Source: a virus. From it: DNA of 27,474 nt. The notes below the pieces were generated by a model, which worked only from the letters and a program-made list of their open reading frames with translations, was not told the origin of the DNA and searched no databases. Positions 280-25,533 of the stretch are shown here, in pieces. How positions within the stretch are numbered: position 1 is the stretch's first letter; each line of letters begins with the position of its first letter. The DNA lies in IMG/VR virus record IMGVR_UViG_3300020193_000646, positions 1 to 27,474 of that record; one strand, 5' to 3'. A program made the translations under genes and the position numbers.

Positions 280-1167
280 CTAAATGCCAGTTTTGAGTAA
301 AGCCAACATGAACGCAAGGGGGTTATTCTCTTCTAGAAACTTACGCTTCACTTCTAACAATCCTTGTAAATTTGCACGGTATATCTCATCTGCATGATCT
401 CTAATATGAGCAAGTTGAGCAATAACTGCTGCATGATCTTTGATATCATCAAGCAAGATGTATCCACCACTAGGGTAGATATCTCTGATATTCTTGCATC
501 CAAAGTAGATTGGTATGGTGTTTGATAAAATGCAGTCGTGAAACTTTTCAGAAACATAGTCTCGCTCATTACTGTTTTCTATGGCAAGAGAAAACTTGTA
601 CTCTCGCAATCCATCAATTTTCTTATCCCACCCACCCGCATCTATTCCCAAATCTACTTCGTCCCGCAATCTGTTGGCTAGACTAAATCTTTGTGGATAC
701 AAACACTTGCTTCCATAATTATTGGATAGTGAAGAAACGATAGAAGACATGAATCTATTCTTGGGTCCTTTCAGGTTATGTAGATTCTTATAGCACCATG
801 TGCCCCATCCCTCGCGGTGAGGACCACACCCACCATAAAACATCAAAGAGTGCATCGGGATGATCCTAACAGAATCTGATACAGTATGCTCGGCATCACG
901 ATATCCATAAACTGTAAGATTTTTGACACCCATAAATGAATGCTGATAGTTTCCCGACCATGATGGTTCTTGTGGGAACAAATAAGCAGGTCGAGAACCC
1001 CAATCGCCTGCTGAATGGTCTATATGACCAAGAATAAACAGCACATCATATGAGTTATCATGGACAAACTCAACAGGGATAAATCTGTGGTGTCCAAACT
1101 GAAGCAATAATCTTTTTGTTACCTCCTCAGTAGAGGTCCAGTTGCAACACACCTTCACCCTCTTCAT
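280..1167 (-). CDS. glycosyltransferase family 10 (alpha-1,3-fucosyltransferase-like)
   Basis: 295 residues. The C-terminal half carries the GT10 donor-binding signature: YKFSLAIENS (about 190-199), then YVSEKFHDCILSNTIPIYFG (about 204-223), followed by a Y-P-like segment. In the family this region binds a GDP-sugar, classically GDP-fucose, and transfers it to a glycan. The N-terminal half (about 1-150) would be the acceptor side and is less conserved. There is no signal peptide or membrane segment, so it should act in the cytoplasm of the infected cell. The ATG overlaps the stop of the upstream gene as ATGA (1167-1164), with GGGAG upstream as ribosome site, so the two genes are translationally coupled. 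It is the last gene of a run of sugar-transfer genes. The acceptor (virion protein glycan, modified base or host surface glycan) cannot be told from sequence. Confidence 0.8.
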   Translation of the reverse strand: MKRVKVCCNWTSTEEVTKRLLLQFGHHRFIPVEFVHDNSYDVLFILGHIDHSAGDWGSRPAYLFPQEPSWSGNYQHSFMGVKNLTVYGYRDAEHTVSDSVRIIPMHSLMFYGGCGPHREGWGTWCYKNLHNLKGPKNRFMSSIVSSLSNNYGSKCLYPQRFSLANRLRDEVDLGIDAGGWDKKIDGLREYKFSLAIENSNERDYVSEKFHDCILSNTIPIYFGCKNIRDIYPSGGYILLDDIKDHAAVIAQLAHIRDHADEIYRANLQGLLEVKRKFLEENNPLAFMLALLKTGI

Positions 1168-2177: not shown

Positions 2178-2184
2178 ACTTACC
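2047..2184 (-). other. GC-rich insert between imperfect direct repeats
   Basis: This 138-bp segment separates two copies of a 27-bp repeat. Its core is far richer in G+C than the surroundings: 41 of 60 bases in 2101-2160 are G or C. It contains clustered six-base palindromes (two GGCGCC, one GGGCCC, one CGGCCG, one GATATC). It supplies the stop of the carbamoyltransferase frame and the start and first ~44 codons of the following gene. I read it as foreign DNA brought in by recombination. Its source is unknown, and no recombinase or mobile-element gene is attached. Confidence 0.65.
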
Positions 2185-3813
2185 CCTGTCCTTTCTGAAG
2201 TAAAAGTCTGCCAGAACTAAGCAATCTAGTTGTGTCTTATCATATACAAGCAATGCGTCCGCATATTTAGAAAGTATTGGCTTTCCATTCACATTGAACG
2301 AAGTGTTCAGTAACACTCCGATGCCTGTTTTCTTCTCAAACTCGGTAAGTAAGTTGTAAAGCCAAGGATTTTGCTCCTGCGTTACAGTTTGAACTCTTGC
2401 TGTTCCATCCACATGGGTGATTGATACCAGTTTTTCTCTCCACTCCGGCTTTACCGTAGGACAGAAACTCATCCACCGCGATTCCCAATTCATGTCAAAG
2501 TATTTGGAAGCATCTTCCAATCGGCATACTGGAGCAAATGGTCTGTACCATTCTCTGTTCTTTACCTTGGCATTCAGTATATCCTTCATGGCAGGAAAAG
2601 CAGGATTGCAAAGAATGCTTCGATTTCCCAATGCTCTAGGGCCATGCTCGGAGTTTCCACGAACAACTCCAACAATTTTGCCTCTTGCAAGATCGCCCAC
2701 CAATTTGGTTGTTTCCAATGATTCTGCCCATCGGTCTTCCACATGAGACATGAGAACATTTCTGTCGATCACTTCGACTCCCGCATATGTCACATCAACG
2801 GCAGTTTTTGGTTTCATGTGATTGAGAATCATTCCTACTGCAAGACCGCAATCGTTTGGATTTGGAGGAACGAATACGGGTCTTCCAAGTTCTTGCTGTA
2901 GTTTGGTATTCAATAGGATGTTCAATGCACAACCTCCAACCATAAGCACAGGAATATCAGGATACTCGGCAAAGATTGACGCCATGTTTTCCATGAACAC
3001 ATTCTCGAAAGCAATCTGAGAAGTCTTGGCAACATCCCATCCAAGTTGTCCGTTCATTCTAGCATTGGTATCGAATGTTAGTCCTGTTTGTTGTCCTAAT
3101 TCTGTGAGAAGATGCAGATAGTTCTGTCCATGAGGTCTTGCTCTGTAATAGTTTTCAAAATGAGGAAGCCATTTATGGTTCGCAGTTCCATACGAGCAAA
3201 GTCCCATGATTTTGCCAGAGTACACCAAGTTACCAATGTTCAAGGCAGGTTCTTTGCGGATATCTCCAAGATAATCTCCGAAAGACATATACGGGAACCC
3301 CATGTCTAGGTTGATCTTCTTCACTAGAGTCATTGTGTTTCTATCAGATGCGTGATAGACATTGAAGAAACCATCGTTTCCTCCACCATCAAACGAAACA
3401 ATCAGCGCCTTATCATAATCTGTTTGATAGAACGCGCACGCCGCATGGGATTCGTGATGCAAACATTCCTTATACTCTTTGGCAGGAATCCGATTTTGAT
3501 AGAACACCTTTTCTGATCCTTCTATACTATCGGTGTTCATAAAGTAACAGGTATCGTACTCTTCTATTCCATGTTGCTCTTTGATGTACTGCAAGACATG
3601 GGTAAGAAGATATGGTCTACTGTAAGATGTAAGATATTGGGAGTATCCTGCATTCTTTACTGTGAGAAATCTCTCCATCTCAATCACAGTTACTAGTTTT
3701 CCATCATGTTCAACAGCAACTGCTGAGTTGTGAGAACCATAGAATGCAATGTTTGCTCTGACGGAGGCGGGGATAGTCGTGGTGGCGGTGGTCATGGGAC
3801 AATGCTTGACCAT
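2170..3813 (-). CDS. carbamoyltransferase, NodU/CmcH (TobZ-like) family
   Basis: 547 residues, the usual length for the family. These enzymes move a carbamoyl group from carbamoyl phosphate, through a carbamoyl-adenylate, onto a hydroxyl of a sugar or other small group. The N-terminal Kae1-like half carries the metal-binding HESHAA (about 120-125) and a phosphate loop FDGGGNDG (about 141-148). GGCALN (about 293-298), PNPNDCGLAVG (about 317-327), the C-terminal-domain SEHGPRALGNRSI (about 388-400) and REWYRPFAP (about 420-428) are all typical. It lies among glycosyltransferases, which suggests it carbamoylates the sugar they attach. Phage homologues are common in T4-like marine viruses, but their substrate is not settled. 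The start at 3813 adds about 18 residues before the first conserved strand; ATG 3795 is an alternative. The last four residues come from a GC-rich insert. Confidence 0.9.
   Translation of the reverse strand: MVKHCPMTTATTTIPASVRANIAFYGSHNSAVAVEHDGKLVTVIEMERFLTVKNAGYSQYLTSYSRPYLLTHVLQYIKEQHGIEEYDTCYFMNTDSIEGSEKVFYQNRIPAKEYKECLHHESHAACAFYQTDYDKALIVSFDGGGNDGFFNVYHASDRNTMTLVKKINLDMGFPYMSFGDYLGDIRKEPALNIGNLVYSGKIMGLCSYGTANHKWLPHFENYYRARPHGQNYLHLLTELGQQTGLTFDTNARMNGQLGWDVAKTSQIAFENVFMENMASIFAEYPDIPVLMVGGCALNILLNTKLQQELGRPVFVPPNPNDCGLAVGMILNHMKPKTAVDVTYAGVEVIDRNVLMSHVEDRWAESLETTKLVGDLARGKIVGVVRGNSEHGPRALGNRSILCNPAFPAMKDILNAKVKNREWYRPFAPVCRLEDASKYFDMNWESRWMSFCPTVKPEWREKLVSITHVDGTARVQTVTQEQNPWLYNLLTEFEKKTGIGVLLNTSFNVNGKPILSKYADALLVYDKTQLDCLVLADFYFRKDRGKYG
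2185..2211 (-). repeat. direct repeat copy 2: within the present carbamoyltransferase C-terminus
   Basis: This partner of the repeat at 2020-2046 lies 165 bp away in the same orientation. It encodes ADFYFRKDR near the end of the carbamoyltransferase. After it the frame continues only GKYG to a stop inside the GC-rich insert. Confidence 0.75.
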
Positions 3814-3826
3814 CTACGGCGAGGAT

Positions 3827-5464
3827 TCATCCTGCATTTTCTTTTCTAATTGATCCATCATAATGGTGAACCCGATTGTGATTGATTGGAGTTGCCAACA
3901 GACAACCAACCTTCAGGTTTCCCGCACTAATTAGTTGATGAGCGTGACTCATCCATGTTTGCTCATGTGGATACGCCCATTTGATGTCCAAGAACACCTT
4001 TCGGTTTCCTTGCTTGTTGAACATGACTGGCCAGTTGCAGTAGTGAAAGTCTCCAACAGCGTATGAAAGTCCTTCCACCGATCCTGTGTAGTGAATCTTG
4101 GTCTTGTTGCACACTCCCTTGATCTGTGGACCTGGAAAGAACTCTTCCTTTTTATCCATTGGAAGATTATGCCATGACCAGTTCAGGTGGTTGTCTCCGA
4201 AGAACTCGCTGAACGACAACTTCAGGTAATCCAAGGACTCCTTCTCCATGATGCTCATGCACTTCTGAAATAGTTTCTTATCGTAGCGAATCAACCCGTT
4301 TTTGCATGGTAGATCAGAACTTCCGCACAGAAGCATATCATCTTCAAAGAAGACCATGTATTCATGCTCAGACTCATCAAACATCTCTGCACTCAACTGT
4401 CTTGCTCCACATATTCCAAGATTATTTGGCTTCTTTATCTCTATCATCGAGTTATTGACAAAGATTTTCCTGAATTTGTCATCAGTCTTTGAATCGGTTG
4501 AGTTGTTAATCACATACTTGGTGGCAGCCTTGAATATAGATGCATGATTTTCCATGGACGCAACCCACAAAGAAAACTGCTCTGGCAGATTGAAACATAC
4601 AGAGAATGTGCATAGTTTAGTATTCTTTCTACTTTCTCTAGGCTCTTTGGTGATCTTCTCTATCCACGGCGCAATTAGTCCATTGGAACCAATCATCTCG
4701 TAATTACACAAATCAGGATGATTGTATGTCAGCAGGGTGAAAATACTCTCTTCAGTACCCATCAGGCCTTTGTTCAGACTATCACTTAGGTAGGAATAGT
4801 AGCGTGCGTTTAGTTTGTTGATGTCTTCTTTACTTCCTCCAAACAATCCGCCTCGCGCTACACGAACCACTTTGGCTCCGCGAGCGAAGTCATTCATCGC
4901 AGAAGACTTGAATCCGTGTATCTCTCCATCAGGTTCGTATGGGAAACATAGAAACAGCGCGCCATCTTCCATATACTTCACGACTTCACTTTCAAAACGA
5001 GATCCAAATAAACCATCGTGAACAGTATTAACAATACCACCATCTAACCAAAGAAAATACTTTGTATTATATGGGTTGAAAATTGTGGTGTCGTTCAACC
5101 AAAACATCTTGGACATCACCAACGGATTGTAAAGGTCTAGGCGTGCTTGTGTGCTTTCGGCCAACCATCCTTTCTGTTCATACCACTTGGGATCTGTCCT
5201 GATCTTCTGTATCTGATTGTAGAAAGGCATTTTGGTACGCAAATCTTCAGCGGTTACATACCGCAGAGTAGTGTTGCCTCTGTCTCTGTTCTGCCAAACA
5301 AACTCTTCCAAATCAGGACTGATAAACAGCATCATCGGACATTTTACTGCCCGAAGCAACTTGCCAAAGGTTTCCTTGTAATGATCAAATGATCGTGAGA
5401 AAGATGTTCCCATCTCTCCCCGGCCGATATTGATTAGCCCACTTACGATTGTGAGTGAGGACAT
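3827..5464 (-). CDS. HtrL/YibB-like domain fused to a GT2-like glycosyltransferase domain
   Basis: 545 residues in two parts. Residues 1 to about 280 match the bacterial HtrL/YibB (WlaTC) family: the opening TIVSGLINIGRG, the central LDLYNPLVMSKMFWL, and FLWLDGGIVNT (about 137-147), which looks like the sugar-nucleotide/metal site. Residues about 284-545 form a second transferase-like domain: a strand LCTFSVCFNLPEQ, then NNLGICGARQL (about 347-357), then an acidic EYMVFFEDDM (about 368-377) like the DxD site of GT-A enzymes. A two-domain enzyme of this kind could add two sugars in turn. It has GGAG before the ATG at 5464 and follows the GlcNAc-transferase-like gene by 19 nt. The first domain is assigned with reasonable confidence, the second by motif only. 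Confidence 0.7.
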   Translation of the reverse strand: MSSLTIVSGLINIGRGEMGTSFSRSFDHYKETFGKLLRAVKCPMMLFISPDLEEFVWQNRDRGNTTLRYVTAEDLRTKMPFYNQIQKIRTDPKWYEQKGWLAESTQARLDLYNPLVMSKMFWLNDTTIFNPYNTKYFLWLDGGIVNTVHDGLFGSRFESEVVKYMEDGALFLCFPYEPDGEIHGFKSSAMNDFARGAKVVRVARGGLFGGSKEDINKLNARYYSYLSDSLNKGLMGTEESIFTLLTYNHPDLCNYEMIGSNGLIAPWIEKITKEPRESRKNTKLCTFSVCFNLPEQFSLWVASMENHASIFKAATKYVINNSTDSKTDDKFRKIFVNNSMIEIKKPNNLGICGARQLSAEMFDESEHEYMVFFEDDMLLCGSSDLPCKNGLIRYDKKLFQKCMSIMEKESLDYLKLSFSEFFGDNHLNWSWHNLPMDKKEEFFPGPQIKGVCNKTKIHYTGSVEGLSYAVGDFHYCNWPVMFNKQGNRKVFLDIKWAYPHEQTWMSHAHQLISAGNLKVGCLLATPINHNRVHHYDGSIRKENAG

Positions 5465-5483
5465 AGTTTACTCCAAGATTGAC

Positions 5484-6812
5484 TCAATATCCTAAAGAAA
5501 TTGGTTTCTCAATTCTATTGAGCCATCCTTTGGACTTACTATAAGGCCAGAGAACAAACTTAGAGGGGTTGCTATCCACAGGACTCACAAAAGATACTGC
5601 CAGTTTAGAGTGCCCTTCGCGGAGATCGTCCTTAGACTTGATAGACTTGTCCCACATGATAGGCCTTGTATTGGGTCTGAAGTCTTCTCGCCAAAGAGTA
5701 TCATTGGCATCATTGTGAATAGCACACACAACAAATTCTAGGTCGCTCGCTTGATGAAACTGCTTTTCTTCCCAACTCAATAGTGTAGCATTTCTAATCT
5801 TACCTTCTGGCAGTCGCTCGCAACGGTTCTTGAAATCCAGTTGAGAATACTCTTCATACTGCTGAAGAGTTCTCTCAGTTCCAATTCCATACTTACCAAA
5901 CACGATGTTTGAATCTGTTTCCATTTCAAACAGGACTCGGTTTCGATGATGGCAGATATTATTGCGCTCAACCCAATTCATGCCATCAACTAGTTTATCT
6001 TTGTTCTGATCGACATGATCTACCCAATGCTTATGAGTTCTATAGTCGCGGGTATATTCATGCCACACCACATTTCTGTGTGGGGTGAACAGATCATATC
6101 CATGAGTAAAACACCGCATTGCCAATGAAATCTCTTCTCCGTGAAAGTAGTAGTTGGGATCATGCGGAACTTCTCGCACCATGTCTCCAATAGTGAAAGC
6201 AAAATGAGCAGAGAAGAATCGGCAAGGAATAGGAGAAGTCAACTCCGTATATCCTTTTCCATTGCCTGCCCAGTAGCAAGTACCATCAATGTAGTGCGGC
6301 TTAAAGAACACGCATCCCTCGGGGGTAAAACGGTCAAACTCCAAGTATAGTGCAACATCCTTTTCTAAGATATCATCATGCTGACGGCCGCGGTGCTTCG
6401 CAGGATTAAAAGAACACACATAACTAGTAAGAAGTGGTTTCTTGTGTCCTTTGGCCTGCAACTCCTTGATCCACCCGATCAGAGCCTCGTCCCAATCTTG
6501 GGCAAAACGATGATGCGAGTCCAGTTGAAGAGTGTATTCCTCTCCATCGTACAGTTGCTCTTGAATAGAGTTGCGTGCCCAACACGCTCCCTTGCTTTGA
6601 CTCCATGGAACATCAATGATCTTGAAGCGAGAATCTTTCTTGAACTCTAATAGTTCCGAGTCCCATGGATCTTTAGACTCATGCTGCCAGCAAATTCCAA
6701 AGCGTAGGCGTTCAGGATATTTGGCCTTGTCTAAGCAGTCCTTGATGGTGGGAACCAGTTCAGGATCACGATACGCTGCAATCTGAATGAAAATGCGATC
6801 ATCACTTGCCAT
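5484..6812 (-). CDS. GlcNAc-transferase-like glycosyltransferase (Skp1 GlcNAc transferase family)
   Basis: 442 residues. The N-terminus (IFIQIAAYRDPEL, about 7-19) and the central YTLQLDSHHRFAQDWD (about 93-108) are characteristic of the family that includes the Dictyostelium Skp1 N-acetylglucosamine transferase. The DSHHRF segment supplies the metal-binding acidic/histidine site. Further conserved elements are WAGNGKG (about 181-187), FFSAHFAFTIGD (about 199-210) and the acidic YYFHGEEIS (about 221-229). The family adds GlcNAc from UDP-GlcNAc to hydroxyl groups and is seen in several large phages. The protein is cytosolic by sequence. Its ATG overlaps the stop of the DUF1599 gene by 11 nt. 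The C-terminal ~100 residues are not recognised. The acceptor is unknown. Confidence 0.78.
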   Translation of the reverse strand: MASDDRIFIQIAAYRDPELVPTIKDCLDKAKYPERLRFGICWQHESKDPWDSELLEFKKDSRFKIIDVPWSQSKGACWARNSIQEQLYDGEEYTLQLDSHHRFAQDWDEALIGWIKELQAKGHKKPLLTSYVCSFNPAKHRGRQHDDILEKDVALYLEFDRFTPEGCVFFKPHYIDGTCYWAGNGKGYTELTSPIPCRFFSAHFAFTIGDMVREVPHDPNYYFHGEEISLAMRCFTHGYDLFTPHRNVVWHEYTRDYRTHKHWVDHVDQNKDKLVDGMNWVERNNICHHRNRVLFEMETDSNIVFGKYGIGTERTLQQYEEYSQLDFKNRCERLPEGKIRNATLLSWEEKQFHQASDLEFVVCAIHNDANDTLWREDFRPNTRPIMWDKSIKSKDDLREGHSKLAVSFVSPVDSNPSKFVLWPYSKSKGWLNRIEKPISLGY

Positions 6813-7134
6813 TTTGTACTCTCTCTTTCTCTTTCAAGTAAGCACTTAACAGAACCATGTAGTTAATTACATCCACACAAGTATCCATGAAACTTTCATT
6901 GGAAACATGAAGTTTACCAGACTCAACAAAAGAACTGAGTCTGCTCATTTTGTCGGTAAGACGAACCAAGAATCCCTGTTCGGTGGAGCAGATGCCCATT
7001 GATTCTACTCTTGTGAAGTTTGCGAACGGTTCTAGTCCGTCATTGCCTGCGTAGTCTCGGTTCTTTGCATCCATAAGGGTGCGGCCAGATTCGCAGATTG
7101 TTTTGTGCCATGCTAATAGTTCATCACGAGTCAT
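6802..7134 (-). CDS. nucleotide-modification-associated protein, DUF1599 (Nmad1) family
   Basis: 110 residues from the ATG at 7134. This start is preferred to an in-frame ATG at 7167 because AGGAAGG lies about 10 nt before it and it clears the dUTPase stop by 7 nt. The family pattern is clear: a helix with KNRDYAGNDG (about 28-37), then EPFANF, then a long helical half ending with MDTCVDVINYMVLLSAYL (about 82-99). This is an all-alpha fold reminiscent of MazG/dUTPase-type nucleotide hydrolases. Such domains occur in phage clusters that make or handle modified nucleotides, and the exact reaction is not established. The gene follows dUTPase and precedes sugar-transfer genes, which fits a nucleotide-related job. 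Confidence 0.75.
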   Translation of the reverse strand: MTRDELLAWHKTICESGRTLMDAKNRDYAGNDGLEPFANFTRVESMGICSTEQGFLVRLTDKMSRLSSFVESGKLHVSNESFMDTCVDVINYMVLLSAYLKEKERVQNGK

Positions 7135-7141
7135 AATGTAA

Positions 7142-7687
7142 TCACCTTCCTGTTGATCCAAACCCACCTATACGATCTGTGGTTTGTTCGGGTCTAGTAT
7201 GTATATGTTCTATCGGGAACCGTACATTTTGTACGAGTTCTCCCTGACAGATTCTTTCGCCATGTTTCACAGTAACCGTGGTACTTGATATGTTCCTGAC
7301 CATCAAGAACACCTCATCAAAGTAGTCTGCATCAATGATACCTTCTCCGTTCGGCAGAATAAGTCCACGCTTTAGTGCAACACTTGATCTCATATGCACT
7401 CGAACAGAATACCCACTAGGAATCTTGGCGATTAGTCCAGTTGGAATAAGAACTGTAGTGCCTGGAGAAATCAGTATGTTCTTATCATAGCGTGGCCACC
7501 AGCGCAGTAGGATCGGATCCAACTGCTGATCATCGATGATGACATTATTTTGATCGACCGACTTTATCATTCTGAAATTTCCCTCTGCATCAATCAGGTG
7601 TGCTGCCAAATCAAAACAAGCGGAATGTTCAGTTGCGTATGTGGGAAGTGATGCGTTCGCATACAGTTGATAAAAACCAAATTTCAT
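7142..7687 (-). CDS. dut: dUTPase (dUTP diphosphatase)
   Basis: 181 residues, longer than the usual ~150. It hydrolyses dUTP to dUMP and pyrophosphate, keeping uracil out of phage DNA and feeding dTMP synthesis together with the dCMP deaminase encoded at 24988-25533. All five motifs of the trimeric family are visible: I ACFDLAA (23-29), II MRSS (99-102), III GEGIIDADYFDEV (114-126), IV GERICQGELV (143-152) and the glycine-rich V RIGGFGSTG (172-180). Motif III has IIDADY in place of the more common VIDSDY, keeping the key aspartate. Extra residues between motifs I and II (about 33-70) explain the length. The ribosome site GGAG lies 7 nt before the ATG. The gene follows the GT25-like gene by 14 nt. 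Confidence 0.9.
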   Translation of the reverse strand: MKFGFYQLYANASLPTYATEHSACFDLAAHLIDAEGNFRMIKSVDQNNVIIDDQQLDPILLRWWPRYDKNILISPGTTVLIPTGLIAKIPSGYSVRVHMRSSVALKRGLILPNGEGIIDADYFDEVFLMVRNISSTTVTVKHGERICQGELVQNVRFPIEHIHTRPEQTTDRIGGFGSTGR

Positions 7688-7701
7688 TGTGTCTCCATTA
7701 C

Positions 7702-8382
7702 TTAGAGGGAATAGGGGGGAATAGGAATCAGTTCATTCAATGCTTGCACATGAGTCGGAACAAGTGGACGATCAGTAAGACTTTGCCATTTGTTTTGGCT
7801 TTCCCGTTCGGCGGACTGTATGAACATTGGGGTAGAGGCAGCAATCACTTTAAACTTACTCTGTGCTGCGGCAAATCCATTATCCATAGGAATTTTCTTG
7901 GTGTACAAACACATATGCGCTATGTCTACTGCATAGTTCTTGTATCTTTCGGACACATACAGTACTGCGTGTGCTGCGAGCATACCGAAGATTCTGTACC
8001 ATCCATTGTTCAAGTCAACAATTGCTTGATTCTTATTTCCATGAGAAATACCAAGATACACGGCATCAGTATCATTTGGCACTTCTATCACAGGTACGAA
8101 TGCTTCAGTTGCAAGAGCATCGTCCTCCAACACAAGAACAGATCCCTTGCTTGCTGATAGCAAGGCATCAATGTGCGCTTGTCCACATCCCATGTAGTGT
8201 TTGCCAAACGCTCTGAGTCTGGCGGCGGACAGGTCTTTTGGTGGTGGAATGATTCGGCCTGGGATTCGTATATGCGAAGTGAATCCCAAGCGATCAAATT
8301 GCTCAATCATTTGCTTGGCATTTAAAGTTGCTCGGTCTAGATTGATCCATCTAGTTTGTACATTACGAAGGTCAATTTTCAT
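7702..8382 (-). CDS. GT25-like glycosyltransferase
   Basis: 226 residues. The opening WINLDRATLNAKQMIEQFDR (about 12-31) is the N-terminus expected of the GT25 (LPS biosynthesis, LgtB/LpsA-like) family, followed by GCGQAHIDAL (about 65-74) and the catalytic-site motif VLVLEDDA (about 82-89). Family members transfer galactose or similar sugars from UDP-sugars. It is somewhat short, and the C-terminal part (NGFAAAQSKFKVIAA) still resembles the family. It directly follows regA (9 nt) and begins the accessory sugar island. The ribosome site is weak (AGAGAG). Confidence 0.7.
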   Translation of the reverse strand: MKIDLRNVQTRWINLDRATLNAKQMIEQFDRLGFTSHIRIPGRIIPPPKDLSAARLRAFGKHYMGCGQAHIDALLSASKGSVLVLEDDALATEAFVPVIEVPNDTDAVYLGISHGNKNQAIVDLNNGWYRIFGMLAAHAVLYVSERYKNYAVDIAHMCLYTKKIPMDNGFAAAQSKFKVIAASTPMFIQSAERESQNKWQSLTDRPLVPTHVQALNELIPIPPYSL

Positions 8383-12932: not shown

Positions 12933-13802
12933 TCAAAATTCCGAAGCAACCTCAACTAGATTTTTCATCTTGTGTTCCATTAAATATGAAAGGATATTTC
13001 CTCTACGAATCGGAATGAAATCTGCATAGTGTTGCAGAATGGATTGCTCCAACTCTATAGGTATGTATCTGAAGTCCACCATGCAGCGGTTGCGATCCCA
13101 GTTTCTTTTTACTTTGTCTGGCATAATTGCTGTACCATCAAACAGATTACCCACAATAAGAATCTGCTCTTGAATAGCAGCAGACTTCTTACTAGTCAGA
13201 GGCGTCTGACGCTTGCCGTCAGTAATGAAACAATCATCGTCCGACAGGATATTCGGAATGCCGTCACCCGAGTCTCCTCCAAGAATGTGGTTCACTAAGA
13301 ACTCGGTTGGATTCTTACACACCACAAATCCCTTTGTAATAGGACTCCATTGCCGAACATTCGGGTAAATTTGCAACTGCTGAAAGTCTTTGTCGCTAGA
13401 AACGATAATGACCTTTTCGTTAATAGAATGGTGCTTGGTCAAGATGGCGATCACATCATCTGCCTCTGCTCCTGGCACTCGCATATGGCGATACGGAAAC
13501 ACATCACGAATCTCTTCGCGGATTCCGTCAATCATGCTGTAGATTGTCTTCCAATCAACATCAGAAGACGCCTTTGCCTTGGCTCTGTTCTTTTTGTAAT
13601 GAGGAAACACAGAGTTTCGCCAACACTTACCACCCTCATGGCAAAGAACAATTTCGCCGGCATCTCGGAACTTCTGTCGATATGTGCGATAGATGTTTAG
13701 CACCGTATGCCGTAACAGATCTTCAGAAAACTGAGCGGCATCGCCCTTCGTAAGGGCGAACAGACTTCCTAACAGTACTTGGTTGTTATCGATTAGAATC
13801 AT
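12933..13802 (-). CDS. rnh: RNase H (T4 rnh type, FEN-1 family 5' nuclease)
   Basis: 289 residues, close to T4 RNase H (305). It removes RNA primers and some adjoining DNA from lagging-strand fragments. Visible catalytic acidic sites: MILIDNNQ (Asp 5), PGAEADDVIA (about 110-119) and IVSSDKDFQQL (about 133-143), then the helix-hairpin-helix region GGDSGDGIPNIL (about 174-185). CHEGGKCWRNSVFPHYKKNR (about 54-73) matches the arch region of the family. It overlaps the gene before it by 1 nt. Confidence 0.93.
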   Translation of the reverse strand: MILIDNNQVLLGSLFALTKGDAAQFSEDLLRHTVLNIYRTYRQKFRDAGEIVLCHEGGKCWRNSVFPHYKKNRAKAKASSDVDWKTIYSMIDGIREEIRDVFPYRHMRVPGAEADDVIAILTKHHSINEKVIIVSSDKDFQQLQIYPNVRQWSPITKGFVVCKNPTEFLVNHILGGDSGDGIPNILSDDDCFITDGKRQTPLTSKKSAAIQEQILIVGNLFDGTAIMPDKVKRNWDRNRCMVDFRYIPIELEQSILQHYADFIPIRRGNILSYLMEHKMKNLVEVASEF

Positions 13803-14908
13803 TAGTAGGCTCCAATGAGAATACAGTTCTCATTGATTCTCCCGCTTATCTTTGCGGGTTTGGTCTTGATGGAGTTCAGCGTGTTTTGCACCATACGAAC
13901 CCCTGTAAGTTTGTTCAGCACATCTTTTGGCCTGCGGAGTTTCTTGGATACAGACTTGGTTTCGTCATAGTTGATAACGGTGGTTCCCTTTACGCTGAGT
14001 CCACGCGGATCTTTTGCAAAGAGTACAGTTAGTGTACGATACTTCTCATTAAACACAACCACTATTTCACTGCCAATGATCTTCTCTGGCGATATGCTTT
14101 TGATATCGTACTCCTTTGACTCGGGCAAGTATTTCATTTTCTTAGTGATTTGGCTTGGAGTCTTCTGCTTTTTCTTACGAGGCTTCCGCTCAGATCGCTT
14201 TTCATCTGCAAAGGTGCGGAAAGCATTGGCGGTTTCAGACAGCATTTGTATGAGTTTCTTGAACCGCGGCCTGGTCAGAAAAGAATATCCCTCGACCAGT
14301 TGTTCGTCTTTGCCTGCATATGCTGTTGCCATCTCTTGCAGATAGGTGGTTTCAATGTAACTGGCAATTTTACCGCAATGCAATGCCTTGACTCCGTGGG
14401 TAGTTGCCCACCCGGCAGGATCAAACTTCATTTCATTCTTGTTTGTGCAGGCGTCTACCACCGAATCCACAATAGCATCAATGTCTCCCAAGTACTCGCG
14501 GTACTTCTGTTCGGTGCGCTCCTGAATGGACGGTATAGCGGTGCCCTGACGCTTGGCGAGGATGGCAGCACCAGTTCGCTTCATATCCCCAATCTCGCGT
14601 GTAATCTTCTGTTTAGTTTCATCTGGCAACGGCGCGCCACGGGTGAGCATTCTACACAGATATCCTATGCCAGAATAACTCTTGATGCCATTTTGTGCAA
14701 TGCACTTGATTGTTTCGGCATCCATCTTGGAATGCTTGCAGTAGTCTAACACCCACCGCTTTTTGTCTCGGTTGGTGCCTTTGCCCCAATACCAATTAAT
14801 AGCCCGTTGGAGAGCAGAGTCTTGCTCATCTTTTGTAGCGCAAGACGCTGCTCCCCAAACTGGCTCGGAGCCATATGCTCGCTGAAGCGTTTTGTTGTAG
14901 TCTTTCAT
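13802..14908 (-). CDS. hypothetical protein, 368 residues, operon leader
   Basis: No family was recognised. The N-terminal ~190 residues are helical and basic, with YGSEPVWG near the start and AINWYWGKGTNRDKKRWVLD (about 36-55). The middle (about 225-255) has a dense Lys/Arg stretch (KRSERKPRKKKQK) likely to bind nucleic acid. The C-terminal third is strand-rich (EIVVVFNEKYRTLTVLF; INENCILIGAY). It starts just 9 nt after the -10 box of a strong promoter, with no spaced Shine-Dalgarno, and overlaps RNase H by 1 nt. Co-transcription with RNase H suggests a replication- or repair-linked job, by inference only. Confidence 0.65.
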   Translation of the reverse strand: MKDYNKTLQRAYGSEPVWGAASCATKDEQDSALQRAINWYWGKGTNRDKKRWVLDYCKHSKMDAETIKCIAQNGIKSYSGIGYLCRMLTRGAPLPDETKQKITREIGDMKRTGAAILAKRQGTAIPSIQERTEQKYREYLGDIDAIVDSVVDACTNKNEMKFDPAGWATTHGVKALHCGKIASYIETTYLQEMATAYAGKDEQLVEGYSFLTRPRFKKLIQMLSETANAFRTFADEKRSERKPRKKKQKTPSQITKKMKYLPESKEYDIKSISPEKIIGSEIVVVFNEKYRTLTVLFAKDPRGLSVKGTTVINYDETKSVSKKLRRPKDVLNKLTGVRMVQNTLNSIKTKPAKISGRINENCILIGAY

Positions 14909-14946: not shown

Positions 14947-16122
14947 TCAATTCACAAGTTTAGGTTGAAATGCCTCATTCTTTGCAGATGGTTTCAAGGT
15001 TATAGCCTTGACAAGACTACGAGAAAGGGCAAGAACCCCTGCATATGGATTTATGTTGGCGCCTGGGCGTCGATCTTCGATATACAGCAGATGTGCTGCA
15101 TCCGTGTTCAAAGGAACAGTAGGCACAGACAAAGATGCAGTATGATCGCCAAATCCCCAAGTAAACTTGTTGTAGTCGCTGGTTCCACCAGTCTTTCCAA
15201 CTAGGCGTTGCTCGTTGCCGGCACCATATGCTACCATGTGTTCGCGGTGATCTTCTCCAATGGTTTCGCAGATTGCTTTGGCAAGTCCTGCATTTCCACT
15301 AGACTTAATGTAGTTGTCCATGTACAGGCGAATGGTGCATCCGTTACCATTCCAGTCTGTGCCAGGGAAACTCTTTGGCGCATAACTGACCACACAACGG
15401 GGCGTGTCTAGACCTTCTGCCGCATTCTCCAACAGATATCGAGAGATGATCAGATTGTCACACGCAGTCAGTAGATCGGTTTCTTGAATAACAAACGACC
15501 ACTGTGACAAGCAGATTCCTGCATTGTATGAACGCATTGCAATCTTCCCTTGCCATGCACACCGATTGTAGAAAGCATTAATCAGTTCCCTGCCTCGTTG
15601 AAAGTCGCCAGAACCACCATAGTACCTGCCTTGCGGACCAGGGAATACCACTTGGGTTTCTCCCTTTTCGTTCTTTCCAGTTGGCCAACGATACGGCTGG
15701 CGGGTGTCAGGATCAATTAATAGGATATCCTGCTCAAACCCAATCTTTACAGCGTTCAGGCCAGTGTTTGCTGAATTGTTGAGAAACTTACACAAATCAG
15801 CACGAGCATTAGATGCGTGAGGAGTTCCATCGGCAGTTTGCACTTCACATAGCACGATATTGCTCCGTCCGAGTGATGAATCTTTCGTAGTACGAACTGG
15901 AACCAAGAACAGATCAGCATTATCGGTTGACGCCTGCTTGCAAGCAGAACCATTAAACCTCTGTATCTTGGGAGTTTCGCCAAATGAAGTGTAGTTAGCA
16001 TTACGAATACCACCGTCAGCATCCAACCAAACATACACCCAATCCGCTATAAGTGGATATTCAACTGTTTCCGCATTCTCGGTATTCTCGGTATTCTCGT
16101 TCTCATGCTTATTCTTTGCCAT
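14947..16122 (-). CDS. class II glutamine synthetase homologue with eroded active site
   Basis: 391 residues, about the length of eukaryotic-type GSII. After a low-complexity Asn/Glu/Thr head (residues 1-20), the GSII pattern runs through: WVYVWLDADGGIR; RFNGSACKQA (55-64); SNIVLCEVQTADGTP; KIGFEQD (126-132); VVFPGPQGRYYGGSG (158-172); SQWSF (206-210); FPGTDWNGNG (252-261); YGAGNEQRLVGK (299-310); WGFGDHTAS (322-330); YIEDRRPGANINPY (347-360). Against plant or animal GSII the fold motifs remain but catalytic residues are gone: the ammonium-site Asp is Asn 56; one of the EQE pair is Asp 132; the metal Glu before QWEF is Gly; the Glu in QWEF is Ser 209; the His of GAGAH is Thr; the flap HET is GGT; the NRxASxR arginines are His and Ser. 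Ordinary glutamine synthesis is unlikely. A scaffold, an inhibitor of host enzyme or a changed ligase are possibilities. It overlaps the gene before it by 1 nt. Confidence 0.85.
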   Translation of the reverse strand: MAKNKHENENTENTENAETVEYPLIADWVYVWLDADGGIRNANYTSFGETPKIQRFNGSACKQASTDNADLFLVPVRTTKDSSLGRSNIVLCEVQTADGTPHASNARADLCKFLNNSANTGLNAVKIGFEQDILLIDPDTRQPYRWPTGKNEKGETQVVFPGPQGRYYGGSGDFQRGRELINAFYNRCAWQGKIAMRSYNAGICLSQWSFVIQETDLLTACDNLIISRYLLENAAEGLDTPRCVVSYAPKSFPGTDWNGNGCTIRLYMDNYIKSSGNAGLAKAICETIGEDHREHMVAYGAGNEQRLVGKTGGTSDYNKFTWGFGDHTASLSVPTVPLNTDAAHLLYIEDRRPGANINPYAGVLALSRSLVKAITLKPSAKNEAFQPKLVN

Positions 16123-17756
16123 TATGATTTCTCCTTTGGTTTGTAAAACACATAAACAGGTTCGTACTTCATGTAGTCACCACTAATCTTGCAATAGTTT
16201 TTACACTTGGGCAATCCTGTCTCTTCGTCAAGACGATTCTGTCCAGGCATAGATTCCATCGCCATCTTCACCTTGTATTTATACACAAGTCCAAACTCTT
16301 CAAGAAATCTTTTTGAATCTTCTTCAAGAGGAAGGTAGTCTCCTCCAATTTGGATATCGGCAATGTTCCATAACAAATACCGATCAGGCTTCAGAAACTC
16401 GGCACAGGTCTTTAGCGTTGGGCGCAAGAATCCATCTCGCCAACTCTCATACGAGGAACCGTACTTCTTGTACGATTGATTCTCGTCCTTAGAATAGGCT
16501 TCGCGGTTAAAGTACGGAGGACTTGTAAAGATCATGTCGATCTTGCCTTTGTACTTCTTGAAACGCGGATCTTTGCCAATCTCTTCAGAACCTAGTCTGT
16601 AGATTTCGTATGTGTTAGTTTCGCTGAAGAACGGATTGCCTCTGTATGTCTTGGTATTGTAGAAGTCTGCAACATCAGCGTAACGAGAACGCTCTTTACC
16701 TGTGTGTTCATCAATGTAGTACAGTTCAGGATTTGGATCAGTTCCAATGTAATGAATTTTGCGATCATCGCGCACACTCATGGCGCCAAGAATACGACCA
16801 CCCCACCCCGATGAAGGATCGTAGATCACAAGCGGAGTCTCCTGCTCCTTGGCGTGTTCTGTGAACCGCTCGTACAGATATTTGGCAGTCATCGGTGGGA
16901 AGTTGTGTGCCACCTGAATGTATCCGATACGGAATGCAGCAAATCCCTTCGGGAACACACGCTCACCCTTGTTGTAAATGCGAATAGTGTACACCCTATC
17001 ATCGGGCATGGCGCTCACATCAAATGTAGAGAAGTGTCGGTACTGTAATACCCCTTCATCTTTCAGTTGCTGCACCTGCTCTCGCGTGAGATTCAAAATG
17101 TCAGACTGATTCAGTTGAAAGTATCCTGTGTTGTTTCCCTCACGAATCTTCACCTGTTCAAGCATGAAGTCGTAACCCTTGAAGATTTCCTTGTTGGTTT
17201 GGAATGCCTTGATCCATGCCATTGCATCGGGTACAGATACGAGAGCAGGCTTCGGATTGTTACGCAAGCACGACAAGGCGTGCATATAGAGAGAGTCTCT
17301 ACGGAAGTGTCGCATTGATCCCTTCACCATGCGTTCAAGAAACTGATCTTCGGCAAATAGTTCGTAGATGGAATATCCATCATCCTTCTCGCTGTAGTTG
17401 ATACGAGTCTTCATCATGGTAGGGAACCATTGATCCGCTTCAGAACCAAGTCTTGCTTTGTTCAGAATCACATCCTTGCCAATATTTTCTAGTTCATCAT
17501 CGAATTCAAAAGACTTCACTGGATACTCCGCCATCTTGTTCCACTCTTCGATGATATCTTCTTCAATCTTTCCTATGCGTGGAGGACATCCCTTGTTGTC
17601 CCAAATATCCACAACTGTGTTACGCATATTGACAACCCACTCGCGGAACTTGTCTGCGTCCATCTCTAACAATTCTTCAAATGTGACATTTACTGGATGG
17701 GTGAGAAGATGCGTGTTCTTCTCAAAGAAAGTTTTATGTGCTTGTAGCGTTTCCAT
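16122..17756 (-). CDS. large methyltransferase-fold protein with intact TSPPY motif
   Basis: 544 residues. The C-terminal half is a Rossmann methyltransferase: SAM-binding VIYDPSSGWGGRILGAM (about 310-326), a strand YIGTDPNPE (about 336-344), and the catalytic motif IDMIFTSPPYFNREAYS (about 406-422), followed by FLKPDRYLLWNIAD. Motif I before motif IV is the order of alpha/gamma-type amino-methyltransferases. The N-terminal ~290 residues are a separate part, helical at first (LEELLEMDADKFREWVVNM), and would be a target-recognition or partner domain. The pattern recalls phage-encoded 'DNA modification methylase' proteins that attend other base-modifying genes. It is joined to its neighbours by 1-nt overlaps at both ends. 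Its target could be DNA, or a precursor already modified by the two genes before it. Confidence 0.78.
   Translation of the reverse strand: METLQAHKTFFEKNTHLLTHPVNVTFEELLEMDADKFREWVVNMRNTVVDIWDNKGCPPRIGKIEEDIIEEWNKMAEYPVKSFEFDDELENIGKDVILNKARLGSEADQWFPTMMKTRINYSEKDDGYSIYELFAEDQFLERMVKGSMRHFRRDSLYMHALSCLRNNPKPALVSVPDAMAWIKAFQTNKEIFKGYDFMLEQVKIREGNNTGYFQLNQSDILNLTREQVQQLKDEGVLQYRHFSTFDVSAMPDDRVYTIRIYNKGERVFPKGFAAFRIGYIQVAHNFPPMTAKYLYERFTEHAKEQETPLVIYDPSSGWGGRILGAMSVRDDRKIHYIGTDPNPELYYIDEHTGKERSRYADVADFYNTKTYRGNPFFSETNTYEIYRLGSEEIGKDPRFKKYKGKIDMIFTSPPYFNREAYSKDENQSYKKYGSSYESWRDGFLRPTLKTCAEFLKPDRYLLWNIADIQIGGDYLPLEEDSKRFLEEFGLVYKYKVKMAMESMPGQNRLDEETGLPKCKNYCKISGDYMKYEPVYVFYKPKEKS
16276..16283 (-). 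promoter_or_regulatory. possible late promoter TATAAATA inside a gene
   Basis: The minus strand reads GTATAAATAC, containing an exact T4 late-promoter octamer, 154 nt before the glutamine synthetase-like start. It lies in coding sequence and may be chance. If used with gp55 and gp45 it would give the downstream gene separate late expression. Confidence 0.25.
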
Positions 17757-18679
17757 TATGCTTCCATTCTTTGTTGTACTTCAGTTTCGCTTAGTCTGCG
17801 CCCAACTATCCAAAAACAAGTACGCTTTGTTAAGTCAAGGTTCTCACGCATCCACTTGTGTGCTTTTGCTTCGTACAGATCGTCAAGGATTGTACCATCT
17901 GCAATCTTTTCCACAAGGGGTTTTCCGTACACCGTATTTAGACAATGCAACTCATATTCTGGCAGAGGATATCCTGCCATTGGATTCACCCATTTGTTGA
18001 TGTTTTCGGTTCGTTTAGGCCCAACACACAATCCAATTACTTTGCCTACATTTATATTGTACCGATGAATGCCTCTGAGAATGGCGGCAAAATGAACCCC
18101 GCTACCCACAGGCACCACCAACTGATCCAACTCGTCTGGTAAATTTTCTACCTGATGTTCAATACTATTAATGATTGCGTCTTCTCTGTTTTCGATGTTG
18201 TGAGTAAAGACTGCATCGTATAGTTTTTCAGACTTTACAATCTCCCGCATCCGTGCAAGCACAGGACCGTGCATTCCCGTCCCGCACACATTACGAATAT
18301 CTGCACCCAACCACTTTGCATATCGCATCATGTGATGATTGTCGATGGTTTCTGGCGAACTGCCACCAATGCAGATGACACAAGGAATCTCTAACTCCTT
18401 GCATACTCTGGCAATAATTGCTCCTGTGGTAGAATGCACCTGTGTGTGAGTCGCTACCCCATTGGTGTGTTCCTTGAGAAAATTTCGTAAGGGATACAAC
18501 AAACTAATGGCCTGCCTTACCTTTCCTCCGCTCACATCTCCACCCCCATAAGGAGTGTACATATCATCTCTCTTGTACCATATTCCCCCAATAATCTTAA
18601 CGGGAGAGAGAATTAGAACATGGGCAGGAAATGCTTTGAGAAAGTCATGTTCCTGTTGCATATCAATTTGTTTATTCAT
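17756..18679 (-). CDS. PLP-dependent fold-type II enzyme (ACC deaminase / D-cysteine desulfhydrase-like)
   Basis: 307 residues from the ATG at 18679, which overlaps the stop of the previous gene as ATGA; a longer frame from 18751 is unlikely. The family signature is IWYKRDDMYTPYGGGDVSGG followed by KVRQA, with the lysine after SGG as the PLP-binding residue. Further elements are VHSTTGAIIARVCKEL (the substrate loop), CVICIGGSSPET, and VVPVGSGVHFAAILRGI, the glycine-rich phosphate cup. Fold-type II enzymes carry out beta-eliminations, replacements or ring-opening on amino acids. Here it is flanked on both sides by SAM-dependent methyltransferase-fold genes, which suggests a part in building an amino-acid-derived modification. 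Substrate not predictable from sequence. Confidence 0.82.
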   Translation of the reverse strand: MNKQIDMQQEHDFLKAFPAHVLILSPVKIIGGIWYKRDDMYTPYGGGDVSGGKVRQAISLLYPLRNFLKEHTNGVATHTQVHSTTGAIIARVCKELEIPCVICIGGSSPETIDNHHMMRYAKWLGADIRNVCGTGMHGPVLARMREIVKSEKLYDAVFTHNIENREDAIINSIEHQVENLPDELDQLVVPVGSGVHFAAILRGIHRYNINVGKVIGLCVGPKRTENINKWVNPMAGYPLPEYELHCLNTVYGKPLVEKIADGTILDDLYEAKAHKWMRENLDLTKRTCFWIVGRRLSETEVQQRMEA

Positions 18680-19341
18680 AGCGGAAGAGTTGTTTTGGAG
18701 TGGCTGAATGTTGGATCGTAAAACTTCTCTTCCAGTTCGCATCCCCACCATCTGCGCCCAGTAGTGCTGGCAGCAAGCAGAACAGGAGCAACCCCCGCGA
18801 ATGGATCGACAACCAAATCACCTGGCTTGGTAAGATTCTCAATCACATACTTGCAGAAATCTTGCGACCACACAGATTGATTCAGTACCTTCTCTTGCCG
18901 ATCCACATAAATGTCGCGCAACCAATCGCCCTTACGGTGAATCACTCCCTCGCTTGTGTATACGAGCATATGTTGGAAAGTGAAGTAGTACATATCGCGC
19001 TTGCCCACTTCGTTTCTTACCACAACCTTGTAATCTTTCAGGCGCAATCCTTCGTTCTCTAGGCATTGTGCATACCACATATGGTTCGACAGAATGAACC
19101 CGTTCACCCTGCGATCTGTCTGGCACACCACAACAAAGCCAGTAGGTTTCACAATACGAGCAAACTCTCGCATTGCTTTCTGCTGAAACTGCCGATATGA
19201 GTCAGTCTCGTCTTTGCTAAATGGTGTTTGGGACAGGTCAGGACATGAAGTGAATACTAAGTCTACCGATTCCGATGGAATGTTGGGCATATAGTCAAAG
19301 GCATCTCCCAACACATATGAGTTCTCTTGAAAGTTTGTCAT
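18676..19341 (-). CDS. methyltransferase-fold protein with altered catalytic motif (SCPD)
   Basis: 221 residues in beta-class order. It opens like a DNA methylase (YVLGDAFDYMPNIPSESVDLV), but motif IV reads FTSCPDLSQT (about 30-39) where active amino-methyltransferases have (D/N/S)PP(Y/F/W). The C-terminal SAM motif is DPFAGVAPVLLAA (about 179-191), followed by RRWWGCELEEKFYD. FVVVCQTDRRVNG (about 69-81) and YYFTFQHMLVYT (about 118-129) are normal in the family. Loss of the PPY stacking residues suggests that it does not flip and methylate an exocyclic amine in the usual way. It may use another target or another part of SAM, or bind only. It overlaps gp46 by 4 nt (ATGA) and the PLP enzyme by 4 nt. 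Confidence 0.8.
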   Translation of the reverse strand: MTNFQENSYVLGDAFDYMPNIPSESVDLVFTSCPDLSQTPFSKDETDSYRQFQQKAMREFARIVKPTGFVVVCQTDRRVNGFILSNHMWYAQCLENEGLRLKDYKVVVRNEVGKRDMYYFTFQHMLVYTSEGVIHRKGDWLRDIYVDRQEKVLNQSVWSQDFCKYVIENLTKPGDLVVDPFAGVAPVLLAASTTGRRWWGCELEEKFYDPTFSHSKTTLPL

Positions 19342-23485: not shown

Positions 23486-25000
23486 CTATAGTTTAATTGT
23501 GACTGTGCTGTAGTCAAACTTCTCGGTTGCGTAGATTTTCATACGCTCCAAAAAGTGATTCAAAGTGAAGTTCACTTTGGATTTCCACCGCAGATCATCT
23601 GCCACATCATATAGTTTGGCTTTTTCCTTATGCTCCGACTTGCGGAGTTGACGACCGATACTTTGAAGCACCCTGATCCTACTCTTGGATGGGGATGCGA
23701 ACACTATATTATGTAGTCTACGAATGGAAACTCCAGTACTGAAGGTTCCATAAGACGCTACAATTATGGCATTATCTTTGGTTTCTGCTAGTGTACGCAC
23801 ATACTCGCGTTGTTCCACCTCGGTTCCCCCATACACAAAAAATACTTCTTTCCCAAGAGGTTTACCCTGTGCAAGAATCATATCGTACAGAGATTTACCG
23901 TGTTTCTCCACATACTGAAACAGCACTAGCGTATTGCCTTTGGTGTTGCAAGCCAAGTTTACGATAAACCTGTTGCGCTTGGGATGCGAAACTAAGAAGT
24001 CTATTTCTTCCTGATAACGCATGGCTTTCACTGCCTTGCAGTCTTCGTCAGGATACTTCAGCGTGATACAGTCGATAGTAAACTCGCTGAGTAGTTTCTG
24101 CTTAATGAGTTCTGTGGTACTTGTGACCTTATGAACAGCACCAAATAGTCCTTCGATGATAAGACGATGCGTTTGAGTGCCGTCGAGCGTTCCAGTTGTT
24201 CCTACGCGGAACTCGCAGTCGATTAGGCGAGACATGATGGTTGACAGCGATTTTGCTTTGTATAGATGACACTCATCACCAAATACTGATCCAAACTGTT
24301 GAAACCACTTTACTGGTTGCTTGTAGATGCTCTGCCAGGTGGTAACGACCACTCGTTTTTCAGTAGTTTTGCTCTGTCCTGCGAAAATCTTGTGAATGTG
24401 CTTCTGCGCTTTCCAAGACTTGTCGCCAGAAGAGTAGTCAATGAAATCGTTTTCCATCTGCGCCACAAGTGATGTGGTGGGAACAATGATGAGAACCTTT
24501 CGTGTGTCTTCTTCCAAGCGTCTACGCATCAGCGTGTAAATGATGAGACTTTTACCCGAGCCAGTAGGAGAAAGTAACAGACATCTTGATCGGTTCAACG
24601 AATGGCATACTGCATCCACTTGGTGTTGGTGGGGATCAATGGGTTTACCGGCCGCTACCAATTTCAAGGTTTTCATGTACTTGCAGACATCTTCGTGTGT
24701 CCATATGTCTTGTGCTTCAGGAAACGAAACACCTATCCAATAATTCCGCTCATTCGCAAACGACTTTACATATTCAAGTAGTCCGCAGTACAGTTCTTGC
24801 GAATGCTGATTGTACAGTCTAATTTTACCATCCCACATTCTGCTGCGATACGCAGGCATAAATTGGAATCCAGGCACCTTGAATGTAAAGAAGTCTGTCA
24901 GTTCTTGTGCAACACTCTTGCTTCCACAATCAACCTTTAAATACACGGAGTTCTTTTTGCTGACAATAATGCTCTCCATAGTTGTATTTAGGGTGTCCAT
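23486..25000 (-). CDS. uvsW: UvsW helicase (SF2)
   Basis: 504 residues from the ATG at 25000 (GAGAGGG upstream; overlap of 13 nt with the dCMP deaminase gene). The longer frame from 25096 only reads through that gene. Motifs: DPHQHQVDAVCHSL (Q-motif region), Walker A LLSPTGSGKS (about 142-151), IIVPTTSLVAQM, Walker B VFGDECHLYK (about 240-249), VGTTGTLDG, and C-terminal LQSIGRQLRK (motif VI). The N-terminal ~110 residues match the small DNA-binding domain of UvsW (FQFMPAYRSRMWDGKIRLYN). UvsW unwinds R-loops and branched DNA, shifting replication from origin- to recombination-dependent mode. Confidence 0.95.
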   Translation of the reverse strand: MDTLNTTMESIIVSKKNSVYLKVDCGSKSVAQELTDFFTFKVPGFQFMPAYRSRMWDGKIRLYNQHSQELYCGLLEYVKSFANERNYWIGVSFPEAQDIWTHEDVCKYMKTLKLVAAGKPIDPHQHQVDAVCHSLNRSRCLLLSPTGSGKSLIIYTLMRRRLEEDTRKVLIIVPTTSLVAQMENDFIDYSSGDKSWKAQKHIHKIFAGQSKTTEKRVVVTTWQSIYKQPVKWFQQFGSVFGDECHLYKAKSLSTIMSRLIDCEFRVGTTGTLDGTQTHRLIIEGLFGAVHKVTSTTELIKQKLLSEFTIDCITLKYPDEDCKAVKAMRYQEEIDFLVSHPKRNRFIVNLACNTKGNTLVLFQYVEKHGKSLYDMILAQGKPLGKEVFFVYGGTEVEQREYVRTLAETKDNAIIVASYGTFSTGVSIRRLHNIVFASPSKSRIRVLQSIGRQLRKSEHKEKAKLYDVADDLRWKSKVNFTLNHFLERMKIYATEKFDYSTVTIKL

Positions 25001-25533
25001 AGTTTCCCTCTCACGCGCACGGAAACTGTTTGAACTTGAAACACCACTCCAGACCATAATGCACATTTGATTCCTGCTTCGCATAGCATATTCCATCCTT
25101 GCTCAATGCTCGCACGCCTATGCATTGATGCATCAGGAGCATACAAATCAAGCATTTCTCGGTGAGCGATCACCTGAGTGATTCCCGATTGAATCAATCC
25201 TCTGGCGCAGTCTATGCATGGAGCCAGAGTCACATACGCATGACATCCTGTGGTAGACAATACACTTTGGCAACAACGATAGAGAGCGTTTCTCTCAGCG
25301 TGTTCCATGTATATGTTTTTGTGTGAAGGATCGTCTAATCTTTCTTGTGTATGATGCAATCCTTCAGGTATAGAATTGGATGCTCCTGCGATAACTCCCA
25401 TCTTTGAATGTACAATGACACATCCAACTTGCGTTGATGGATCAGGACTATGTTGAGCAAAACGATATGCTTGCTTCAGATATGAAGCATATACCGCTCC
25501 TTCTCCAACAAATCCTGTGATTGTTTGCATCAT
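24988..25533 (-). CDS. cd: dCMP deaminase
   Basis: 181 residues. The zinc-dependent deaminase signature is HAERNALY (78-85) and PCIDC (105-109), with DPSTQVGCVIV (about 31-41) at the nucleotide site. It converts dCMP to dUMP for dTMP synthesis, working with the dUTPase in this window. The family also contains riboflavin-pathway and tRNA deaminases, but length, context and the QVGCVIV segment fit dCMP deaminase. The ATG overlaps the UvsY stop as ATGA. Confidence 0.9.
   Translation of the reverse strand: MMQTITGFVGEGAVYASYLKQAYRFAQHSPDPSTQVGCVIVHSKMGVIAGASNSIPEGLHHTQERLDDPSHKNIYMEHAERNALYRCCQSVLSTTGCHAYVTLAPCIDCARGLIQSGITQVIAHREMLDLYAPDASMHRRASIEQGWNMLCEAGIKCALWSGVVFQVQTVSVRVRGKLWTP

Follow-up and report, generated by a model that had tools for sequence, protein, structure and literature searches.

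An open reading frame in a 27,474-nucleotide stretch of phage DNA, here called the window, encodes a protein that descends from class II glutamine synthetase (GSII). Throughout the clade to which this protein belongs, core catalytic residues of the enzyme are gone; the gene is under purifying selection, and its translational coupling to the gene upstream is conserved. Judging from the residues that are missing, glutamine synthetase activity has almost certainly been lost. The explanation that best covers the observations as a whole, although it is held with slightly less than even confidence, is that an active phage GSII became a pseudoenzyme in place and now serves as a non-catalytic partner, scaffold or sensor.

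Homology and predicted fold

Positions 14947-16122 of the window contain many stops when read on the plus strand. The gene is read on the minus strand, from 16122 to 14947:

14947..16122, minus strand: GSII-fold protein of 391 aa, apparently dead as a catalyst (NCBIfam GlnII, maize GS, predicted fold, lost catalytic residues)

Searches of several kinds place the product among the GSIIs. A profile search with NCBIfam GlnII gives an E value of 6e-47, at a score (160 bits) that lies below the 500-bit equivalog cut-off; Pfam Gln-synt_C matches at E 2e-6, and sequence alignment with maize GS gives E 6e-44. Solved GSIIs from plants, animals, fungi (including yeast) and bacteria (including Streptomyces) match at E values of 1e-45 to 1e-31, and identity to cellular GSII is about 30%. 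An AlphaFold2 model built from an alignment with 35 phage sequences has a mean pLDDT of 86.8 and superposes on maize GS (2d3a) with a Z of 39.9 and an rmsd of 2.3 over 332 residues. This deeper alignment includes intact relatives, which helped to give the model its canonical look; a model from a shallower, 10-row alignment reaches a Z of 32.6 against the same 2d3a chain. Both parts of the GSII fold, an N-terminal beta-grasp and a C-terminal catalytic domain, are present in the predicted structure, and the matches indicate that the protein is, over its full length, a class II glutamine synthetase by descent. A spurious or chance reading frame is ruled out by the matches to solved GSIIs, the GlnII profile and the predicted fold. 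The original prediction, made from the DNA letters, had called a full-length GSII in which the fold and the EDRRP motif remain; the profile search and the overlay on maize GS that it proposed as checks uphold membership in the family, and EDRRP anchors the alignment.

The PHROGs assignment of the protein is phrog_21628, whose function label is "unknown". Every phage GSII scanned, intact or dead, matches this family, for which a GSII-like annotation is probably warranted. The C-termini of the clade (14947-15000 in the window) carry a conserved FxPKLV tail behind a variable linker, which could be an interaction motif; L019 and L021, whose GSIIs are intact, do not have the tail. Neither an Rfam scan nor a tRNA scan found anything in the window.

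Catalytic positions in the window protein and its clade

Residues of the enzyme are numbered below as in maize GS, through its alignment with the window protein. GS has six metal ligands, E129, E131, E192, E199, H249 and E330 (PMC3975887). Ammonium is bound by D56 and E297, H249 is essential, and R316 contacts ATP (PMC3430217); residues of the glutamate site have also been described (PMC8982429). Departures from this set in the window protein are encoded as follows:

15952..15954, minus strand: codon for N57 (maize D56, ammonium site); Asn in this phage only, Asp in relatives
15727..15729, minus strand: codon for D132 (maize E131, metal ligand)
15517..15519, minus strand: codon for G202 (maize E192, metal ligand); Gly, Ala or Ser in the clade
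15496..15498, minus strand: codon for S209 (maize E199, metal ligand); Ser or Thr in the clade
15334..15336, minus strand: codon for T263 (maize H249, essential metal-binding His); T, I, C, N or V in the clade
15322..15330, minus strand: codons for R265 and Y267 (maize N251 and S253, nucleotide site); Arg and Tyr fixed clade-wide
15175..15195, minus strand: former glutamate flap, KTGGTSD replacing KHETAD; catalytic E297 gone, one residue added
15142..15144, minus strand: codon for H327 (maize R311); His here only, Arg or Lys in relatives
15127..15129, minus strand: codon for S332 (maize R316, ATP phosphate); Cys in other members

Only E129 and E330 remain of the six metal ligands, E131 having been replaced by Asp. 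Neither ammonium-site residue is left: N57 stands in place of D56, and two glycines with a one-residue insertion (G312-G313) stand in place of E297, which is absent from all members of the clade. On the ATP and phosphate side, Arg, Tyr and Ser or Cys are found in place of N251 and S253, which contact the nucleotide in GSII structures, and of R316. The glutamate side is preserved, since N244, G245, R291 and R332 are invariant across the clade; the window protein retains R291 and R332 as well as E129 and E330.

These substitutions had been read by eye in the original prediction (D56N, E131D, E192G, E199S, H249T, the flap GG, R311H and R316S), and every one of them is real. Its "Asn 56" needs renumbering, however, since 56 is the maize position and the residue in the window protein is N57. 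The catalytic residues might have been present but merely shifted, as it also considered, but there is no Glu in the flap and no His near 249, and the motifs QW, WNG, NExRL and EDRRP anchor the flanking alignment. A glutamine synthetase that remains active by means of alternative catalytic residues is extremely improbable. The window protein still has E129, R291, E330 and R332, and L009 and L200 also keep E131; against this, neither the ammonium-site Glu of the flap nor the essential His that binds metal is left, two of the metal-binding Glu residues and the Arg for ATP have been lost as well, and the importance of several of these residues is documented (PMC3430217).

The extent of the loss was judged from syntenic relatives, gathered via the neighbouring gene for a PLP-dependent enzyme, and from GSII scans of viral contigs, which gave more than 150 loci among the matches listed, phage GSII being commoner than sampled. 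All 14 catalytic positions checked are kept by 112 of the 120 distinct phage GSIIs (among the matches listed), the sole exception within the 112 being a gap in one contig-truncated sequence. The other eight are exactly the sequences at the window's syntenic locus, and each of them has lost 5-8 of 12 catalytic positions. Further relatives, found by a clade-specific scan, all share the losses; L200 and the earlier match L050 are partial sequences. Wherever a member covers the site, E192 is lost (to Gly, Ala or Ser), E199 is Ser or Thr, and H249 is lost; N251R, S253Y, E297G and the change of R316 to Cys or Ser are likewise fixed where covered. The range of residues at the H249 position suggests that it is free to drift within the clade. 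Elsewhere the clade varies: E131 is kept in L009 and L200, E129 is Asp in L007 and L017, D56 is kept in seven of the eight members and is Asn in the window alone, and R311 is His in the window alone and Lys in L007 and L017. The idea that the substitutions are fixed in the phages of this clade therefore stands for the core losses and fails for D56N and R311H, which are private to this phage. A defect private to one phage is rejected on the same grounds.

Besides the glutamate-side residues, Q197, E330, Y158 and S58 are invariant across the clade, and the DGS loop of the neighbouring subunit is retained. Loss appears to have been directional: residues for metal and ATP have gone from one half of the pocket, and the glutamate end is preserved. 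A Fisher test finds weak enrichment of losses in active-site columns (p 0.14 when total loss is counted, 0.03 when loss in most members is), since changes on the long stem of the clade also affected other conserved columns; the case for direction comes from the identity of the lost residues, not from enrichment. Retention of the EDRRP residues may reflect a need in folding and not in ligand binding. One scan of genome contigs, which was not exhaustive, found no cellular GSII with the same losses and gave only a 27% partial match. No second GS is present in the clade's 44-60 kb contigs; these are pieces of what should be much larger genomes, in which an active GS could lie elsewhere.

Gene neighbourhood, origin and selection

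The genes that flank the GSII gene, and the signals for its translation, are these:

18676..19341, minus strand: methylase-like protein with an altered motif IV (SCPDLSQ), a motif seen in relatives; Pfam N6_N4_Mtase E 5e-16
17756..18751, minus strand: PLP-dependent enzyme of the tryptophan-synthase-beta/ACC-deaminase superfamily; Pfam PALP E 1.7e-12, GGKVR motif
16122..17756, minus strand: large DNA-methylase-like protein, 544 aa, motifs SPPY and DPSSGWGGR intact; Pfam N6_N4_Mtase E 6e-8
16131..16136, minus strand: ribosome-binding site AAGGAG, then TAATG, where the GS start and the stop of the gene before it overlap
13802..14908, minus strand: downstream gene conserved with the dead GS, function unknown; phrog_11903 E 1e-64

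The 544-aa methylase-like gene adjoins intact GSII at 24 other distinct loci among the matches listed; at all but one of these it lies upstream of the GSII gene, no more than about 530 bases away and on the same strand. This association suggests that phage GSII serves something specific to its methylase-like partner. In the tree, the window clade has an SH-aLRT support of 100 and sits on a long stem (1.67 changes per column); together with 34 intact sequences it makes up a larger set of 42 phage GSIIs, whose support is 98. All 24 of the intact loci with the methylase-like neighbour (among the matches listed) fall within this set. Only two of the intact loci listed, L019 and L021, also have the PLP gene and the other methylase-like gene upstream, in the window's order. 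These two have an intact GSII (that of L019 matches yeast GS at E 4e-72) in the same slot and the same four-gene order as the clade, and they share with the clade an insertion in the loop between WP and FPGPQG that is missing from the other sequences checked. Because slot, gene order and loop insertion are common to these intact sisters, the comparison supports the conversion of an active GSII into a pseudoenzyme in place. The shared slot and insertion also contradict independent acquisition of an already degenerate gene. The exact branching of the clade is uncertain because its stem is long.

Within the clade, dN/dS (Nei-Gojobori) of the dead GSII gene ranges from 0.09 to 0.23, and that of the intact L019/L021 pair is 0.137. 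Values for neighbouring genes are mostly 0.02-0.09, with 0.11-0.15 for the downstream ORF, in a comparison that leaves out the PLP gene and is rough, some synonymous distances being greater than 1. Among the nearby genes for which the estimate is usable, the dead GSII gene has the highest dN/dS. Its value exceeds that of most neighbours several-fold, and the constraint on it is therefore modest. Its frame is complete in all relatives that are not contig-truncated, with no frameshift or stop. The gene is under purifying selection; loss of catalytic residues combined with such selection is what would be expected of a pseudoenzyme, and a pseudogene is ruled out by the dN/dS values and the intact frames. 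The TAATG overlap, preceded by AAAGGAG, is found in the window and in L006, L010, L011, L013 and L014; the overlap is four bases in L007, and there is a gap of 11 bases in L009.

A functionless, decaying remnant of an auxiliary metabolic gene is largely refuted and has very little probability left. Such a remnant would account for the lost catalysis, the long stem and the top dN/dS among nearby genes, but it does not fit the absence of frameshifts and stops from every non-truncated member, dN/dS values close to that of the intact sister pair, or the conserved ribosome-binding site and stop/start overlap. The original proposal that the fold is kept under selection for something else is supported by the clade-wide losses, the dN/dS values, the complete frames and the conserved ribosome-binding site.

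Several other features of the neighbourhood were observed. The GSII-linked 544-residue methylase-like gene spans diverse T4-like phages (e.g. L065, L090, L127) at 62-71% identity, on the same strand and usually with the rnh gene after it. In more than 30 viral contigs a methylase-like protein whose motif IV reads S[CL]PD[LI]SQ, where an SPPY-type sequence is usual, adjoins the PLP enzyme (examples, besides the window pair at 18676-19341 and 17756-18751, are L022, L027 and L031). This pair looks like an undescribed two-gene unit, perhaps for a non-methyl base modification. L013 has a sugar epimerase/dehydratase-like gene (6444-7424, identity by eye) between gp46 and the methylase-like gene, an insertion absent from the other relatives examined. 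Elsewhere in the window, a glycosyltransferase cluster (280-8382; GT10, GlcNAc type) contains a NodU/CmcH-type carbamoyltransferase (2170-3813) and possibly decorates glycans or DNA. A dCMP-deaminase-like ORF (24988-25533) overlaps the start of a UvsW-like helicase ORF (23486-25096) by about 110 bases, and the true start of the helicase may lie further downstream. No psbA was found, a result that is uninformative on a cyanophage host.

Possible function and known systems

In the explanation proposed here, an ancestor of this T4-like phage group had an active GSII directly downstream of the large methylase-like gene. In the window clade, the side of the active site that handles metal and ATP phosphate was then dismantled and partly plugged (N251R, S253Y), leaving a pocket from which neither gamma-glutamyl phosphate nor glutamine would be expected. 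With its fold, its glutamate-end residues and the DGS loop of the neighbouring subunit retained, the dead protein presumably still assembles into a GSII-like ring, GSIIs being decamers of two pentameric rings. It is proposed tentatively, and at rather less than even confidence, that this ring would act as a non-catalytic partner, scaffold or ligand-binding sensor, likeliest with the co-translated methylase-like neighbour, and the partner or sensor role would have outlived the enzyme activity.

The window offers a context for base modification in its two methylase-like neighbours and one PLP enzyme (identified by Pfam). No hypermodification enzyme was recognised among the matches listed in a partial Pfam list for one relative's contig. 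In a bolder and unlikely version of the mechanism, the dead ring is an obligate non-catalytic subunit of a DNA-modifying complex. It would bind both the co-translated methylase-like protein and an amino acid, and would direct a base modification other than methylation, made with the help of the PLP enzyme and the second, altered methylase-like protein. If so, the intact sister phages would have the same complex as it was before the ring lost its own chemistry. Rather unlikely, too, is a neofunctionalised enzyme, whose remodelled pocket would catalyse, for example, an ATP-independent or differently activated amide formation in DNA modification together with both methylase-like proteins and the PLP enzyme. 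The conserved four-gene module, the newly fixed R265 and Y267 and the altered catalytic motif of one methylase-like protein would suit such an enzyme. However, few of the residues for metal, flap and phosphate are left, position 249 varies as it would if no chemistry took place there, and the vacated positions show no new set of fixed acids or His. An ATP-driven ligase is further disfavoured by the vacant metal sites and by the Arg and Tyr that have become fixed where the nucleotide would bind.

The original prediction had further suggested that the protein poisons or retunes a host GS, or that it is a decoy for GS regulators. GSII active sites form between adjacent subunits (PMC8982429). A dead subunit with a preserved interface (DGS loop, Y158) could therefore be taken up into the rings of a host GS, with the effect of inhibiting that enzyme or changing its behaviour. 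Most bacteria, however, rely on a dodecameric class I GS, which a class II pentamer is not expected to join; with identity to cellular GSII as low as it is, and with an intact sister lineage that speaks against poisoning as the original role, this explanation is unlikely. Mimicry of host GS to occupy its sensors or modifiers (PII-like or GlnR/TnrA-like regulators, modifying enzymes) is very unlikely. The best-known GS regulators act on class I GS, which counts against a class II decoy. Retention of the GS fold without activity would suit a decoy, and so would the separability of catalytic and regulatory roles in a fungal GS (PMC3829961).

Auxiliary metabolic genes of phages are usually annotated by homology and presumed to be active, and glnA has been listed among those of jumbo phages (PMC13037316). 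That a glutamine synthetase called by homology is apparently inactive across a whole lineage warns against counting such genes in nitrogen-cycle inventories. What appears to be new is that loss of the catalytic set is shared by all eight syntenic phage GSIIs and by further relatives; the expectation that no phage protein of this kind had been described agrees with the open-access literature, in which no catalytically dead phage GSII was found. The dead clade and the intact sister lineage, with the same gene order, form a before-and-after pair for the non-catalytic roles of a metabolic enzyme in phage, and the tight linkage of phage GSII to a methylase-like gene gives a lead to a role beyond bulk glutamine supply.

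Compared with the GSIIs of maize (GS1a, 2D3A) and Streptomyces (4BAX), the window protein shares homology along its full length, the predicted fold, the EDRRP and WNG motifs and the glutamate-side residues, whereas it is without the metal, flap and ATP-phosphate residues, has Arg and Tyr instead of Asn and Ser in the nucleotide pocket, and has a loop before FPGPQG that is 9 residues longer. Intact phage GSIIs, among them the IMG/VR relatives and those of the huge phages LR756502 and LR756501, belong to the same family but keep every catalytic residue. Lengsin is a class I GS that has been reused for another role; it resembles the dead phage GSII in this reuse of the GS fold and differs in being a class I, animal, non-phage protein of unrelated origin. 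In gln1 of Fusarium fujikuroi a regulatory role survives without glutamine formation (PMC3829961), as the result of a laboratory mutation, whereas the loss in the phage clade is natural.
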